64,000 nt of DNA from Terriglobales bacterium (GTDB lineage Bacteria > Acidobacteriota > Terriglobia > Terriglobales > Acidobacteriaceae): positions 1 to 64,000 of the forward strand of contig DASPRM010000164.1 in NCBI GenBank assembly GCA_035624455.1, written 5' to 3'. How positions within the stretch are numbered: position 1 is the stretch's first letter; every line of letters begins with the position of its first letter. Shown here one piece after another: positions 52,602 through 60,852 of the stretch. The notes beneath the pieces are model-generated. The model searched no databases. It had not been told where the DNA came from and saw only the letters and a list, made by a program, of their open reading frames with translations. A program made the position numbers and the translations under genes.

Positions 52602-53207
52602 TCACACATGCCCATTCCCCCGCGCCTTATCGCGCACCTTCAGTGTGCGGCGCACCCGAGGCAGCAGAGCCGTGTAGTACTCGATCAGTGCGGTCACCCG
52701 CTGCGGCTCGGAGCGCATGCCGAGAAGCGTCTGCTTGAAGTCCAGATCCAGGGGCAACATCCCGGCGATGTGGAACGAAATTTGGGGTTCGTCCACTTCA
52801 GGAGCCTCCGCCGACTCCGCCCCGGCTAAAGCCAGCAGCTCCTGGTGCATGGTGAGCAACTTCTCCACGTCCGAAGGCGGGGGGTTGCCGGGATCATCGT
52901 CAAAATAGCGAACCTCCGCCTGCAAGAACGATCTCTCCTCGTTGACCTGCATAATCTCGAAGCGTTGGCGTCCCTCGGCCACGATATCCATGCGGCCATC
53001 CTCGTATTTCTTGGTGACCTCCATGATCTCGGCTGTGCAGCCCAGCTCGGCCAGCGAGTTCTCTTTGGCGCGCACCAGGCCGAAAGGCTTGTTCCCAGCC
53101 AGAGCCTCCCCGATCATCTCCTTGTAGCGAGGCTCGAAGATATGCAGTGGAAGCGGCGCCCCGGGCAACAACACCATATCCAATGGAAACAGCGGCAGCA
53201 GACTCAC
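52602..53207 (-). CDS. LON substrate-binding domain protein
   Basis: The protein has about 201 residues from GTG 53207, where the domain starts (LLPLFPLDMVLLPGAPLPLHIFE), though an ATG at 53282 is also in frame. It contains RYKEMIGEALAGNKPFGLV, AEIMEVTKKYEDGRMDIVAEG and RRTLKVRDKARG. It is a LON N-terminal domain without ATPase or protease, as in many bacteria; it may bind unfolded proteins or regulate. If it starts at 53282, it overlaps the radical SAM gene's start by 2 nt. Confidence 0.75.
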   Translation of the reverse strand: MSLLPLFPLDMVLLPGAPLPLHIFEPRYKEMIGEALAGNKPFGLVRAKENSLAELGCTAEIMEVTKKYEDGRMDIVAEGRQRFEIMQVNEERSFLQAEVRYFDDDPGNPPPSDVEKLLTMHQELLALAGAESAEAPEVDEPQISFHIAGMLPLDLDFKQTLLGMRSEPQRVTALIEYYTALLPRVRRTLKVRDKARGNGHV

Positions 53208-53280
53208 AAGCAGATTGTACGACAGACCCCGAAGCTGGGCGGGACACACAAATAGTGGCACCTGCGTTAGCATGGTTGCC

Positions 53281-54702
53281 ATGAATGTGGTACTCGTCTC
53301 GACCTACGAGTTGGGACACCAGCCTTTCGGACTTGCTTCGCCAGCGGCATGGCTGCGCCACGACGGTGCCCGCGTGACCTGCCTCGATCTCTCGCAGCAG
53401 GCATTGAAGGACAATGAGGAATGCCTGCGCAATGCAGATCTGATTGCTTTCTATCTGCCGATGCACACCGCCACCCGCGTCGCCCTGTACGCTATCAGCC
53501 GCGTTCGCAGCCTGAATCCGCGCGCGCATCTGTGCGCCTACGGCCTCTACGCGCCCTTAAATTCAGATCAACTCCGCGAGCTTGGGATCCAGAGCATCTT
53601 CGGCGGCGAATTCGAAGCGCCATTGGCTGCTTTTGTCAGCAAGCTGATGCGTCACGAGGGCAACGGCACCGACACGAGTTCCTCGGCTTCGATTTCCCTC
53701 GACCGTCAGCAGTTTCTCGTCCCAGACCGCTCCAGATTTCCGCGCCTGAACAAATACGCAAAATTGATGCTGCCCGGTGGACGAGAGAGAGTCGTGGGCT
53801 ACACCGAAGCCAGCCGCGGGTGCAAGCACCTTTGCCGGCATTGCCCGGTCGTCCCGGTTTACAACGGCGTGTTTCGCATCGTGCAGCGCGATGTGGTGCT
53901 GGCAGACATACGGCAGCAAGTTGAGGCTGGAGCCGAGCACATTTCTTTCGGTGATCCCGACTTCTTCAACGGTATCGGACACTCACTGGGAATCGTGCGC
54001 GCACTTCACACCGAGTTTCCCACTCTGAGCTACGACGTGACCATCAAGATCGAGCACCTCCTCACGCACGCGGAGCATCTCTCCACCCTGCGCGAGACCG
54101 GCTGTGCTTTCGTGGTCAGCGCCGTCGAGTCATTTGACGATAACGTTCTCCGCCTGCTCGATAAGGGGCACACCCGCGCGGATTTTGTGGAAGTATTGAA
54201 GCTCATGCGCGAGATCGGTGTTCCGCTCTCGCCCACTTTCGTTGCCTTCACTCCCTGGATTTCGCTGGCCGGATATGAGGACTTTCTGCTCACCCTCGCT
54301 GAGCTCGACCTGATAGAAAACGTCCAGCCGATTCAGCTTGCGATACAGCTGCTGATTCCCTCCGGATCGCGCTTGCTTAAACTGCAGGAAGTACGCGACC
54401 TGATCGGGCCATTCGACCACGCTGCACTTTGCTATCGTTGGCTACACAGCGATGCCAGAGTCGATCTGTTGCAGCAACAATTGGAGGCATTCCTGCAGCA
54501 GTCGCGCAAGTGGGGAATGCCACGTCGAGCCATATTCGAGCACGCGTGGAGCTTGCTGCAATCCTTCCGCAGGAACGAACGTGCGGCTGATTCGAGAGAG
54601 CCTGCGCTGCCTCCGATGGCGGCGCGGACAACAATTCCTTACCTCACCGAGCCCTGGTACTGTTGAGCTGAGCCCACCACGGGGCAGTTGGCCCCGTTCT
54701 GA
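53281..54702 (+). CDS. B12-binding-type radical SAM selenoprotein with CUAEP tail (in-frame UGA recoded)
   Basis: The 473-residue product runs from ATG 53281 to TGA 54700-54702 if TGA 54664-54666 encodes selenocysteine. A B12-binding-like Rossmann domain occupies the N-terminus. The radical SAM cluster is SRGCKHLCRHCPV (C181, C185, C188). The tail reads TEPWYC, then UGA, then AEPTTGQLAPF. The C-U-A-E-P context matches a radical SAM family I recall as CUAEP/CCAEP-tail, in which some members are selenoproteins. A 7-bp hairpin lies 13 nt after UGA. Treating the first TGA as stop gives 461 residues, lacking the tail. The substrate is unknown. Confidence 0.8.
54679..54697 (+). promoter_or_regulatory. 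Candidate bacterial SECIS hairpin
   Basis: ACGGGGC (54679-54685) and GCCCCGT (54691-54697) pair perfectly around a 5-nt loop AGTTG. The stem begins 12 nt after the UGA, and the loop lies about 20 nt after it, within the normal range for bacterial SECIS. The loop contains G and U, as SelB-binding loops usually do. It lies inside the reading frame. Confidence 0.6.
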
Positions 54703-54725: not shown

Positions 54726-55028
54726 ATGGCGCGTAAGCAAATCATCTGCCTCACGCGGCGCATGAAGGATGAAGATCCGCACCGCCACATCTCCCACCTG
54801 GGCATTGGAGACGAGAACGGCTGGTCTGAAGTTCTGATGGCGGAAGAAGTGATCTGGCAGCTCAAATCAGAATCGGGCGATCGTTATTTTCTGCGTGGCC
54901 GCGACGGCTGGGAAGCTGACGTGAAGCTGGGAAAGTGTCCTTTCTGCTCCGCGGACCACGTGTTTCTATGCTCTGCCCCGGATCTGACGGCTACAGACAA
55001 ACTGCTGACACTGCCCGTGTGCGGCTGA
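54726..55028 (+). CDS. DUF3892 domain protein with Cys pair
   Basis: The 100-residue protein has the DUF3892-like part RKQIICLTRRMKDEDPHRHISHLGIGDENG then GDRYFLRGRDGWEADV, and a Cys site KCPFCSADHVFLCSAP. The Cys pattern suggests metal binding. It follows the radical SAM stop by 23 bp and may share its transcript. Confidence 0.65.
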   Translation: MARKQIICLTRRMKDEDPHRHISHLGIGDENGWSEVLMAEEVIWQLKSESGDRYFLRGRDGWEADVKLGKCPFCSADHVFLCSAPDLTATDKLLTLPVCG

Positions 55029-55227: not shown

Positions 55228-57198
55228 CTACTCTTCTTCCTGTCGCAGCTTTGCGATCACGCCAAAATCTTCCAGCGTGGTGGTGTCGCCCTTGACGTCG
55301 CCGCTGGTGGCCAACTCGCGCAGCAGGCGGCGCATAATCTTGCCGCTGCGTGTCTTCGGCAGAACATCGGTGAAGCGGATGTCGTCCGGTCGCGCCAGCG
55401 CTCCGATTTCCTTCACCACCCACTGCCGCAGCTCTTCTTTTAGCTGCGGACTGGGTGTCTGGCCGCCCTCGAGCGTCACAAAGGCGGCGATCGCTTGTCC
55501 TTTGACTTCGTCTGGGCGTCCCACGCAGGCCGCCTCCGCCACCATGGGATGCGCTACCAACGCCGACTCCACCTCCATGGTGCTCAGCCGGTGACCGGAA
55601 ACATTGATCACGTCATCCACACGGCCCATGATCCAGAAGTAGCCGTCCTTGTCGCGCCGCGCGCCATCGCCCGTAAAGTACGTGCCCGGAATCTGCGACC
55701 AATACTGGCGGACATAGCGGTCAGCATCACCCCAAACCGTGCGCAACATCGCTGGCCACGGCTTACGGATCACAAGGTAGCCACCCGAACCCGCCGGCAC
55801 CGGCTTGCCATCCATGGTCACTACTTCGGGGATCACCCCGGGGAAAGGCTTGGTAGCCGATCCCGGCTTCGTGGCGATCGCCCCTGCCAACGGGGTGATC
55901 ATGATCATTCCGGTTTCCGTCTGCCACCACGTATCGACAATCGGGCAGCGGTTGCGCCCGATCACTTCCCGGTACCACATCCAGGCTTCCGGATTGATGG
56001 GCTCGCCCACGGTACCCAGCAGGCGCAGGCTGTCCATCTTGTGTTTTCCCGGCCACGACTCGCCCCACTTGATGAACGTGCGGATTGCCGTCGGAGCCGT
56101 ATAAAACACGTTCACCTTGTGGCGGTCGATGATGCTCCAGAAGCGGTCCGGCTCGGGGAAGTTAGGTGCGCCCTCATACATCACCGAGGTCGCACCGTTC
56201 TGCAGCGGGCCGTAGACGATATAGCTATGCCCGGTGACCCAGCCGATATCGGCGGTGCACCAGTAAACATCTTCCTCTTTAAGATCGAAAACCCACTTGC
56301 AGGTGAGATAAGTACCGACGGAATAGCCGCCCGTTGTGTGCACGACGCCTTTCGGCTTTCCTGTCGTACCGGAAGTGTAAAGGATGTAGAGCGGATGCTC
56401 GGCATCAACCGGCGTGGCGTCGCACTTGTCGCTCGCCTTGGACATTAGATCGTGCCACCAGTGATCGCGGCCGGCTTTCATCGTTACCGGAGTCTTGGTC
56501 CGCTGATACACGATCACGTGTTTCACCGAAGGACACGAATCCAGCGCCTCATCGACAGCAGGCTTCAGCTTGACTTCATTGCCACGGCGATAAGAGCCAT
56601 CCTGGGTGATTACGGCCACTGCCGTGGCATCATTGATGCGGTCCACCAGTGCGTTCGACGAAAAGCCGCCAAATACTACCGAGTGGATGGCACCTATACG
56701 GGCGCACGCCAGCATGGCCACTGGAAGCTCCGGCGTCATACCCATATAAATGGCCACCCGGTCGCCCTTCTGGATCCCCAGGGACTTCAGCACGTTGGCA
56801 AACTTCGAAACCTCGGTCAGCAACTGGGCATAGGTGAGCGTCCGGATCTCGCCTGGCTCTCCTTCCCACAGCAGAGCGGTCTTGTTGGCGCGGCCACCCT
56901 TCACATTGCGGTCGAGGCAGTTGAAGGACAGGTTGATCTCGCCACCTACGAACCACTTCGCCCAAGGTGCGTTCCACTCCAGGACCTTGGTCCAGGGCTT
57001 GAACCAATGCAATTCGCGGGCGATATTGCCCCAGAACTTCTCCGGATCTTCAGATGCTTCCTTGTAGAGGCGCTCGTAATCTTCCAGGCTCCGGATGTGA
57101 GCTTTCTGCCGGAACTCCGCCGGCGGCTCGAACGTGCGTGCTTCCTGCAGTACGGAATCAATGCTTTGCTGTGGTGAGGTAATCGTCTCTTGTGCCAT
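55228..57198 (-). CDS. acs: Acetyl-CoA synthetase
   Basis: The protein has about 656 residues. ATG 57198 ([11 protein letters not shown]) is preceded by GGAG. It carries the adenylate signature [16 protein letters not shown], acetate-specific [47 protein letters not shown], and the acetylation-regulated Lys in [11 protein letters not shown]. It makes acetyl-CoA from acetate, ATP and CoA. It follows a second acs-like gene by 40 bp in the same operon. Confidence 0.94.
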
Positions 57199-57238
57199 TC
57201 TGACTCCTGCCGCGAGCTGAGTAATATCGTAGTACGAT

Positions 57239-59146
57239 TTACTGTTCCATGGTGGAAATGTCGCCCGGATCCTGTCCACTCTCCTTCGCCTTCAGAAAGC
57301 GGCGAAGAATCTTACCAGAGCGGGTCTTGGGTAGGGCAGCTACGAACTCAATCGCCGACGGCGTGGCAATCGGCCCCAGTTCCCGCCGTACATGCTCGAC
57401 CAGGGTAGTTGCCAGGGCGTCACAAGCGGTATGGCCGGCACGGCAGGTCACGAAGGCCTTGATCACTTCCCCCTTGAGGGCATCGGGCACTCCGATGGCT
57501 GCCGCTTCCGCCACTGCGGGGTGAGACACCAGTGCGCTCTCCACTTCCGCGGTTCCGATCCGGTGTCCGGCTACGTTGAGGACATCATCCACCCGCCCCA
57601 AAACCGTAATGTAGCCGTCGGCATCCTTGACCGCCACATCCCCGGTAGCGTAGCAACCCGGAATCTTCTTCCACTCGCGATCGTAGCGGTCGGCGTCTCC
57701 CCAAACAGTGCGCATCATGTGCGGGAATGGCCGCTTCAGGACCAACCGTCCGCCGGCCCCCGGAGCCGTGGGCTTCCCTTCTTCGTCCACCACATCTGCG
57801 ATGGATCCAGGAAGTGAGATACCGCACTTACCGGGACGGGTAGCCATCGAAGCCGGGGTTCCGATAGCCGGTCCGCCCAGCTCGGTTTGCCACCAGTTAT
57901 CGCACACATAGCCCCATTTCCCGTCGCCAGCGAGATGCGTCTGTGCCCAGCGCCAGGCTTCCGGATTCAGCGGCTCTCCCGCGCAGGCCACAAAGCGCAG
58001 GCTGGAGATATTGTGCTTGGCGGGCAGCGCGTCGCCATATTTCATGAACATGCGCAGCGCGGTAGGAGCGGTGAACATCTTGCTGACGCCATAACGCTCG
58101 ACAATGTCCCAAACGATGTCCGGTGCGGGGTAGTCGATTGCTCCTTCGCGAAACAGTGTTGTCACTCCTGCGCACAGCGGGGCATAAACAATGTAGGAAT
58201 GACCTACAATCCAGCCGATATCGGAAGTACACCAGAACACGTCCCGCTCGCCAACGTCGTAGTAATTTTCCAGATGGTAGGTAGTCCCTACCATGTAGCC
58301 GCCGTGGACATGCACGACGCCTTTGGGCTTGCCCGTACTGCCGGAGGTATAAAGGATGAACAGGGGATCTTCGGCATCCATGTCTTCGGCGGGGCAATCG
58401 TCAGGGAATTTCATCAGATCGGCGAAATTCACTTCCCGCCCGCTCAGTTCCGCGTTCTCGCGTGAGAACACCACCACTTTCTCCACGAACTCCAGAGCAT
58501 CCACAGCTTCATCGGTGATGGCCTTCAGTTGTACCTTCTTGCCGCGGCGGTATCCGACATCGCCGGTAATCACAATGCGCGCCTGGGCGTCGACAATCCG
58601 CTCGCGCAGCGCAGTGTGTCCCAGTCCGGCATAGACCACGGAATGAATCGCTCCGATGCGGGCGCACGCCAGCATCGCCACCACACCTTCGATCGTAAGA
58701 GGCATGTAAATAATGACGCGGTCGCCCTTCTTCACTCCCAGCGATTTCAGTCCGTTGGCAAACCGGCACACCAACTGGTGCAACTGGCCGTAGGTGACGA
58801 TGCGCTCAGTTCCGTCCTCCCCTAGCCAGATGTATGCCACCCGGTTGCGGCGATCGGAATTGGCGTGACGGTCGAGAGCATTCACCGTGATGTTCGTGCG
58901 GGCACCCAGAAACCATTTATGGTGCACGCCATCAAACTGCATGACCCGTTGCCAGGGCGAGTTCCAGACAAAATTGCGAGCGTAATCTCCCCAGAAGGCT
59001 TCCGGAAAATTGATGGAGCGCTCGTATTCTTCGTTCCAGGATTGCTGGCGGGCGCTCTCGGCGACGATCTTGGGGGAAGGATATTCTTCGGCGATATTAA
59101 GCAGATTAGAAATACTTTCGTTTGCGGATTTTGTGGCTAAAGTCAT
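57239..59146 (-). CDS. Second acetyl-/acyl-CoA synthetase, tandem paralogue
   Basis: The protein has about 635 residues from ATG 59146 (GGGAG upstream). It has [66 protein letters not shown] and [11 protein letters not shown]. The WWQTE core suggests acetate, but the flanks ([10 protein letters not shown]) differ from the first acs, so substrate preference may differ (propionate or another short acid). It lies between actP and acs. Confidence 0.88.
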
Positions 59147-59241
59147 ATGCAACTCCCGGAAACGTTCTGATGCTTTGGGGAAGAAAGATGAGCATGCCGG
59201 CGGCGGTACGTGCGACCGCCGTCCGGCATGCGTGATACAGG

Positions 59242-60852
59242 TTAGTGGGCAAGCGCCTTCTCCGAACCCAGTCCGGTGTTGGCGCGAACCTCCAGTTCAG
59301 TGAATTTGTGCTCGGCGGAAGCCTCGCGGCCGCCCAGCAGGGTTCCTAAAAATGCTCCGATGAATCCCAGCGGAATGCTGGCGATGCCGGGATTCTCCAA
59401 CGGGAATATTGGAGCATGCTGAATCAGGTGGCGTGAAATGGCCGGCGTCGTTGCCGTATCGATGCCCATGACGCTGGGGCCAATCAGGATGAGCACAATC
59501 GACGCCAGCAGGCCGACGGCCAGGCCCATGACCGCTCCCAACGTGTTAAACCGTCTCCAGAAGATCGAGAGCACAATCACCGGCAAGTTGGCGGAGGCAG
59601 CCACTGCAAAAGCCAGAGCCACCAGGAAAGCCACGTTCGCGCTGGGTCCCAAAACAATCGCGATGCTGATGGCCACCGCACCAACCACAAAGGCCGCGAT
59701 CCGCGACACCATCACCTCCTCGCCCGGTTTGCGCTCCACCCCTTTGTGAATCACGTTGGTCCAAAAATCGTGAGCAAAGGACGTGGAGGCGCTGATGGTC
59801 AGTCCAGCAACCACCGCCAGGATCGTGGCGAAAGCAATCGCGGAAATGAAGGCGAAGAACACATCCCCAGCGACTGCCTGCGCCAGCAGAGGCGCGCTCA
59901 TGTTGTTGCCGCCATGAGTAGAGATAAAGTCGCGCCCAACGATGGTGGCTGCGCCGAATCCCAGGAAGGTGGTCATGATGTAAAAGCTGCCAATCAAGAT
60001 CATCGCCCAGACCACGCTATAGCGCGCGGTCTTGGCATCCGGAACGGTGTAGAACCGGACCAGAATGTGCGGCAGCCCCGCCGTGCCAAAAATCAGAGCC
60101 ATGCCCAGCGAAATCAACTCCAGGGGACCGTTGGGTGGCTTGAAGCGCAGCCCGGGCTGGAGAAAGTCTTTAGTGATCTCCTGCCCTGCTGGGCCATGGT
60201 AGCTTACGTGCTGCACGGCAGTGAAGAAATTGGAGAAACTGAAGCCGAACTTGCTCATCACCAGAATGCTGAGCAGAATGGTGCCCGTCATCAGCAGGAT
60301 GGCTTTGATGATCTGCACCCAGGTCGTGGCCAGCATACCGCCGAACACCACGTACACGATCATCAGAATGCCGACGCCGATGACAGCCGTGCGGAAATTG
60401 ATCCCTGAGCCCTTCAACAGCAGGCTCACCAACGCGCCCGCGCCCACCATCTGCGCGATCATGTAGAACGTGCTCACGGTGAGGGTGCTGACGGAAGCCA
60501 TGGCCCGTACCGGCCGCGGTTTTAACCGATACGCGAGCACGTCTGCCATGGTGTACTTGCCCGCATTGCGCAGCGGTTCTGCCACGACCAGGAGTACGGT
60601 CAGGTAAGCGACCAGCCAGCCTACCGAGTACATGAACCCGTCGTAGCCGAAGAAAGCGATCAATCCCGCAATCCCGAGGAAGGAAGCAGCGCTCATATAG
60701 TCGCCGGCAACAGCCACCCCGTTCTGCCAGGCGGTAATACGCCGGCTCGCGGCAAAGTAGGCGCCCGCGCCGGCGGAGCGGCGAGCGGCCCAGTAGGTGA
60801 TCCCTAGCGTGATCACGATAAAAACCAGAAACATCAACAATGAGGTTGACAT
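59242..60852 (-). CDS. actP: Acetate/cation symporter ActP (sodium:solute symporter)
   Basis: The 536-residue protein has about 13 hydrophobic segments and SSS family marks: [55 protein letters not shown] and [24 protein letters not shown]. ActP brings acetate in with Na+ or H+. It overlaps or abuts the DUF485 gene, with 2 bp between them, the known yjcH-actP pairing. Confidence 0.93.

Follow-up and report, generated by a model that had tools for sequence, protein, structure and literature searches.

A vicinal Cys-Sec (CU) motif occurs in the selenoproteins SaoL, SaoC, HgcA and MbdU, according to Table 1 in the available part of a 2026 review that tabulates 119 prokaryotic selenoprotein families (PMC13188914). 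A vicinal Cys pair is likewise present near the C-terminus of ArsL, the radical SAM enzyme of arsinothricin biosynthesis, whose authors propose, in the available part of their report, that it transfers the 3-amino-3-carboxypropyl group of SAM to arsenite (PMC8552651). NCBIfam also holds a model, NF040546, for a 'CUAEP/CCAEP-tail radical SAM (seleno)protein', a family that is named and curated but uncharacterized. Its members share the adjacent Cys-Sec pair with SaoL, SaoC, HgcA and MbdU, but those four proteins belong to other domain models (PMC13188914, same part). Neither 'CUAEP' nor 'NF040546' was found in the parts of the review available to us, nor 'CUAEP' or 'radical SAM' in those of the deep-Sep paper (PMC12013277), and searches of the open-licence PMC literature returned nothing on CUAEP, CCAEP, RCCLKC or arsinothricin together with ATP-grasp. 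Within these open-licence PMC searches we have not seen described the ligase partnership, the ArsL context or the UU and UC tails reported below.

The gene studied here lies in a 64,000-nucleotide stretch of acidobacterial DNA (the window), on the plus strand at 53281..54702. It starts with the ATG at 53281 and, if the in-frame TGA at 54664..54666 is read as Sec462, encodes 473 residues before the terminating TGA at 54700..54702. The frame end reads TEPWYC-TGA-AEPTTGQLAPF-TGA, the codon of C461 occupying 54661-54663, so that read-through makes CUAEP of residues 461-465, and the next ATG-initiated ORF begins at 54726, 23 bp past the second TGA. A first-pass annotation made from the sequence alone had reported this arrangement and this spacing correctly. 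It had also argued that AEP directly after TGA was not due to chance, a view which the family model upholds: the predicted protein matches NF040546 at 615 bits (cut-off 500) over profile positions 1-467 of 468 with read-through, and at 595 bits, ending at profile position 457, when translation stops at the first TGA. The window gene is thus, by its whole-length match to an existing model and its Sec at the second pair position of the same tail, a member of a known family. Pfam Radical_SAM (PF04055) matches at 50.2 bits (cut-off 29.5), and the predicted [4Fe-4S]/SAM cluster motif C181-x3-C185-x2-C188 (53821..53844) is invariant across 27 aligned family members. Of the earlier proposal of a B12/SAM enzyme the radical SAM half therefore stands, while the B12 half is uncertain, the B12-binding domain PF02310 scoring 26.2 bits, below its cut-off of 32.1.

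Comparison of homologues places the putative Sec462 in a conserved C-terminal tail, P453-YLTEPWYCUAE-P465 in the window (54637..54675). Among 396 sampled genomes of the home phylum, Acidobacteriota, 61 contain a match above the NF040546 cut-off (at E 0.001 the number with any match rises to 366, for the most part through weak hits on other radical SAM proteins). We read 60 of the genes, the window gene and 59 others, while a further gene, in genome G128, is divided between two contigs and was assigned Sec from the stop count. Forty-eight are Sec forms (46 CUAEP and two CUSEP), ten are Cys forms, one runs into a contig end and one has lost the frame. The conserved tail is present in 58 of the 60, most commonly as P-x-L-x-E-P-W-[YF]-C-U/C-[AS]-E-P; the exceptions are the gene at the contig end (L065) and a gene (L105) with a CUAEP tail in another frame. 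In the best 80 named loci listed from one scan of genome contigs the tail is found in 79, the match to the remaining locus (L153) stopping at residue 424, and the pairs are CU in 50, CC in 24, UU in three and UC in two, with one unread. A third sample, 199 genomes from the class of an Anaerolineaceae genome (G420), yielded 19 genes, all with the tail (18 CU and one UU), although two of these, the UU gene and one CU gene, sit in genomes already counted in the other samples. Our motif searches demanded an aromatic residue, two positions each C or U, and then A/S/G-E-P with small variants, so that at these positions conservation is in part built in; W, and E two residues before it, were absent from the search requirement and are nevertheless found in 155 of 155 proteins. 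The signature given by the first-pass annotation, a radical SAM family with a C-x-A-E-P tail in which x is Sec or Cys, is accordingly confirmed by NF040546 and by the homologues, including the CCAEP forms that it had suggested looking for (CC in 10/60 home-phylum genes and 24/80 best-listed named loci). The family name does not cover all the variation, as WYUUAEP tails, encoded with two consecutive in-frame TGA codons (L127, L128 and L138), and WYUCAEP tails (L144 and L178) occur in Anaerolineae/Chloroflexi MAGs, and four loci (L099, L101, L113 and L114) have CUSEP, with Ser instead of Ala. The L113 and L114 sequences are near-identical (branch lengths 0.003), yet one MAG is labelled Verrucomicrobia and the other Acidobacteria, so that an error in one of the labels or bins is likely.

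One alternative is that translation simply ends at the first TGA, in which case the AEP after it would be a remnant or a coincidence. An annotated record appears to agree with it: the Thermomicrobium roseum megaplasmid CDS at L188:7935-9371, although annotated as a CUAEP/CCAEP-tail radical SAM protein, ends at the TGA. The codons past that annotated end, however, read AEPLEDPSG, and in this one annotated record checked the gene call thus misses the tail, as the first-pass annotation had expected of usual gene calls. The conservation of the tail across many taxa, with Cys replacing TGA in some of them, argues strongly against a plain stop, as do the Sec machinery and the hairpin described below, which is kept only in the TGA forms; on these grounds we reject this reading, to which we give very little credence.

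In the window the sequence ACGGGGC-AGTTG-GCCCCGT (54679..54697, plus strand) can form a hairpin with a 7-bp stem that begins 12 nt after the TGA. In the available part of PMC13188914 the bacterial SECIS model is given as an apical loop 16-37 nt after UGA with G within its first two positions, and the window hairpin, with its AGTTG loop beginning at 19 nt, agrees with this model. We examined 133 distinct tails from the home phylum, the best-listed named loci and T. roseum (138 were found, of which five repeated or short ones were dropped; the 19 class-sample tails lie outside this set). On a simple purpose-made SECIS score, the 98 tails that have Sec at position 2 average 16.1 and the other 35 average 9.9 (p 9e-13). 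When pairing was counted in one fixed register, 563 of 686 cells (82%) were paired in the Sec tails, compared with 113 of 245 (46%) in the tails with Cys at position 2 and with 42-55% in the Sec tails when the register was slid. When the 3' arms were re-dealt in 500 shuffles, paired cells averaged 457 and never exceeded 483; with re-dealing confined to tails that share the 3' peptide, the average was 491 and the highest count 500, whereas the observed number on the cells used for that test was 513. The relatedness of the sequences inflates both shuffle tests. The register is kept across the 98 Sec tails with compensatory variation. Both UC tails fall in the Cys bin yet keep a moderate hairpin, and so work against the Sec/Cys contrast. 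As judged from these alignments, a SECIS-type hairpin is kept in the TGA forms and not in the Cys forms.

The window genome also encodes the machinery for Sec insertion that the first-pass annotation had named for checking, namely SelA (558 bits), SelB (351 bits) and a tRNA-Sec (selC; 66.4 bits, anticodon TCA). A second tRNA-Sec match in this genome (L010, 51.3 bits) is a tRNA-Ser according to ARAGORN but passes the Rfam cut-off of 47, and we therefore took 54 bits as the line for a true tRNA-Sec, a value chosen after the scores were known (the nearest being 53.2 below and 55.0 above). In the home phylum, with genomes G188 and G001 left out and G128 counted as Sec, SelB scores above its cut-off in 47 of 49 Sec-form genomes and in five of ten Cys-form genomes (Fisher p 0.0009), a tRNA-Sec of at least 54 bits is present in 43/49 and 5/10, respectively, and at least one of the two is found in 48/49 and 6/10 (p 0.002). 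The tRNA is thus missing at this line from six of the 49 Sec-form genomes; with the Rfam cut-off itself, a match is found in 57 of the 61 CUAEP genomes. The single exception to the combined count, G110, is a 260-contig assembly with a UGA form. Similarly, among 50 of the best 80 named genomes SelB is above cut-off in 25 of 26 with Sec, UU or UC forms (the other has a partial match of 215 bits at a contig end) and in 16 of 24 with Cys forms; all five genomes with UU or UC tails have it. Genomes without detected SelB are therefore enriched for Cys forms, and Cys forms in genomes with SelB are no contradiction, as such genomes may have other selenoproteins. Reading of the UGA by a near-cognate tRNA, for Trp or Cys, would be a further way to extend the protein, but we found no point in its favour: the same gene is terminated by UGA, and the hairpin, SelB and tRNA-Sec all favour Sec, which makes this the least credible of the alternatives, below even a plain stop. 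Because Cys and Sec homologues share the tail, SelA, SelB and tRNA-Sec are present, the hairpin is specific to TGA forms and SelB-less genomes are enriched for Cys forms, the window gene almost certainly encodes a Cys461-Sec462 pair in the conserved tail of an NF040546 protein, decoded by SelB at UGA with the aid of a SECIS-type hairpin. The recoded stop looks real, in a family already modelled by NCBI.

A FastTree phylogeny of 158 rows (155 family members and three ArsL sequences), built after removal of the tail, requires at least 19 changes between Sec and Cys at the second residue of the pair and one at the first. Of the inner branches, 47 of 155 lack resolution, and the well-supported branches alone force 11 changes under the CU label and nine under the CC label. 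Sec at the first position is limited to five rows, which group with one CU row (L175), their branching being left open by the tree. With all four combinations (CC, CU, UC and UU) found at a single vicinal pair, one position of which needs at least 19 switches, the family is a good natural series in which to see what selenium adds to a radical enzyme. The same series is what would be expected of redox partners, and it is possible that the tail is purely redox, a Cys461-Sec462 selenenyl-sulfide giving electrons or a hydrogen atom (through a selenyl or thiyl radical) and so ending each radical cycle on a carbon-based substrate, with no soft element bound. A selenenyl-sulfide of this kind forms at the C-terminus of thioredoxin reductase. 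The frequent interchange of Cys and Sec on the tree suits such a role, as does a tail modelled with greater confidence than the linker before it (see below); binding of a ligand suits the pair equally, however, since ArsL, with arsenite as the proposed substrate, also ends in a vicinal Cys pair (PMC8552651, available part), and no reductase was seen among those recurrent neighbours of the family that were identified, a minority of the clusters. We regard the purely redox tail as a serious minority view, about one chance in three, behind the reading in which the pair works on a substrate at the active site.

An AlphaFold2 model of the window protein, with Cys replacing Sec, has a mean pLDDT of 92.2. 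Its nearest solved folds are AprD4 (6fd2, Z 26.8), OxsB (5ul4, Z 25.1), MgmA (9ccb, Z 24.6) and TsrM (6wtf, Z 23.8), which share its two-domain architecture over 350-422 residues; they differ in that identity is 15-18% and the titles of the structures mention no Sec tail, and cobalamin binding by the window protein is only putative. As in these enzymes, the core would consist of an N-terminal Rossmann (B12-binding-like) domain and a radical SAM barrel. The linker (residues 431-450) has pLDDT values of 63 and 71 for its two blocks, and the tail blocks 451-460 and 461-470 have 86 and 80. The tail, which the first-pass annotation described as a flexible C-terminus, may therefore not be simply flexible. 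The greater confidence of the model in the tail than in the linker, together with inclusion of the tail in some structural alignments, suggests that the tail docks on the barrel. The linker varies in the family, the distance from a W-x-H motif to the tail ranging between 55 and 167 residues for the 127 of 155 proteins that the pattern matched, although the pattern itself may account for some of the longer distances. Our current working hypothesis is that this variable linker tethers the better-ordered tail, and that docking of the tail at the barrel would let the Cys/Sec pair take part in the active site, an arrangement of two-domain core and tethered tail that we somewhat favour.

What the active site might do is suggested by ArsL, the nearest other curated family and, at 277 bits against a cut-off of 450, the second-best NCBIfam model for the window protein. 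ArsL sequences from 16 plasmid records are 29-34% identical to it over 80% of the query, and many core positions align, with CxxxCxxC, DxDFFN, PxQ and GSxLL segments shared. In contrast, three ArsL-type loci end in RCCLKC without the long linker of the CUAEP proteins, the window protein has no RCCLKC, and the P. amygdali locus adjoins arsM, arsQ and arsN1, genes which nearly all CUAEP neighbourhoods lack. With such a score, no RCCLKC tail and ars-type neighbours rare, membership of ArsL was rejected. By analogy, the vicinal Cys/Sec pair could hold a soft substrate atom, or serve as a redox partner, while SAM is converted to a non-standard alpha-amino acid; we offer ArsL-type chemistry for the CUAEP enzyme as a tentative and rather doubtful proposal. 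A narrower version of it would make the enzyme an arsenite 3-amino-3-carboxypropyl transferase, a selenium form of ArsL, with a ligase capping an arsinothricin-like amino acid as a dipeptide. Apart from the kinship with ArsL, this version draws on the presence of an ATP-grasp gene in two of the three ArsL-type plasmid operons, those of Alicyclobacillus (L189:1436-2668) and Priestia (L191:1483-2706). The Alicyclobacillus protein is homologous to the CUAEP-associated ligase described below, and arsinothricin-type amino acids may therefore be made into peptides there. The surroundings of the CUAEP genes speak otherwise: nine ars probes from the ArsL loci each match 0-2 of 140 CUAEP neighbourhoods, with no enrichment (the two ArsM probes match one and two and the ArsQ probe none, and none of these three matches in the window, where one ArsB-type match falls). 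Moreover, the carriers are ordinary soil, sediment and groundwater bacteria, which would not suggest an arsenic specialism. Together with the low ArsL score this makes arsenite an improbable substrate.

Of the neighbours of the family that were identified, the commonest is an ATP-grasp L-amino-acid ligase: 88 of 140 neighbourhoods contain it (60 from the home phylum, 79 named loci and T. roseum, up to ~9 kb each side, many ending at contig ends), and in 66 of these it lies downstream on the same strand. It has ATP-grasp_4 and LAL_C2 domains, and its nearest solved structure is the L-amino acid ligase BL00235 (3vot, E 1.9e-37). Genome-wide, at a threshold of E 1e-60 or better that we chose ourselves, the ligase is present in 67 of the 396 home-phylum genomes and in 59 of the 61 with CUAEP (p 8e-59); three of the eight ligase-only genomes (G080, G213 and G367) have CUAEP-like matches below cut-off, at 468-500 bits. 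In the class sample of 199, CUAEP is found in 19 genomes, the ligase in 23 and both in 17 (p 1e-17), related genomes being treated as independent in both counts. No ligase was found in the ~1.5-kb flanks of the class-sample CUAEP loci, and in the co-carriers the two genes lie on different contigs in 15 of 17 and ~94 kb and 2.9 Mb apart in the other two. In a few of the genomes, for example G466, both genes are near contig ends, so that linkage is possible there. That the two genes are inherited together with no linkage to be seen is the strongest indication of a common pathway, even though the related genomes are not independent. The co-occurrence hints, in most genomes examined, at a small-molecule pathway, and we consider it quite probable that the CUAEP enzyme and the ligase act in the same one, the ligase encoded in most CUAEP genomes examined joining the new amino acid into a dipeptide. 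The two home-phylum CUAEP genomes in which no ligase was found at E 1e-60 are G335 and the window's own, G000, where the ATP-grasp search gave no more than a distant match (50.7 bits); in the window genome the second step may thus be missing, be carried out by another ligase or be encoded in an unassembled part.

Several other genes recur among the 140. An Fe(2+)-trafficking gene occurs in 53, in most cases past the ligase position and on the opposite strand, and an Nfu-type Fe-S carrier in 33, usually no more than 300 bp upstream; a POT peptide transporter is present in 19, DUF169 in seven and aconitase in 22. The last has no evident link with the family, and some of the conservation of the neighbourhoods is therefore shared ancestry. 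As many recurrent clusters are antisense ORFs, only those confirmed by Pfam or by a solved-structure search are named here, and other partners may have been overlooked.

Taken together, we favour, with a probability of about 0.6, the reading in which a Sec-containing tail docks on a radical SAM core that would make an amino acid from SAM, perhaps much as is proposed for ArsL, which a ligase would then join into a dipeptide. It is interesting to speculate that CUAEP and the BL00235-type ligase make up a two-enzyme pathway, as yet undescribed, that is shared by soil, sediment and groundwater bacteria of several phyla, and in which a selenoenzyme, with a Sec-Sec pair encoded by two consecutive UGA codons in some Anaerolineae, builds a new alpha-amino acid, perhaps with a carbon-soft-element bond formed via Cys-Sec, and the ligase converts it to a dipeptide; in this full form the idea is possible, with the odds somewhat against it. 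A named family without a function nevertheless gains a testable biochemical context from the co-occurrence with the ligase (in one phylum and one class sample), the kinship with ArsL, and the Fe-S and peptide-transport neighbours.

The window itself provides little of this context. No window ORF within 6 kb of the gene belongs to the 45 most widespread neighbourhood clusters, and a local operon was rejected; with a reach of 9 kb one symporter-like cluster, from seven genomes, takes in a window ORF. Immediately 3' of the radical SAM gene is a 100-aa ORF (54726-55028) that matches nothing in NCBIfam (E <=1) or in Pfam (E <=0.001). On the minus strand at ~62.4 kb, 7.7 kb downstream of the radical SAM gene, is the ORF matched by the ArsB-type transporter probe (E 1.4e-17). 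The minus strand at 55228-60852 holds two acetyl-CoA-synthetase-like ORFs in tandem and, named like them by eye from its translation, a solute/sodium symporter-like ORF. On the other side of the gene a divergent LON substrate-binding-domain gene (52602-53282) has a start that shares 2 bp with the radical SAM ATG.
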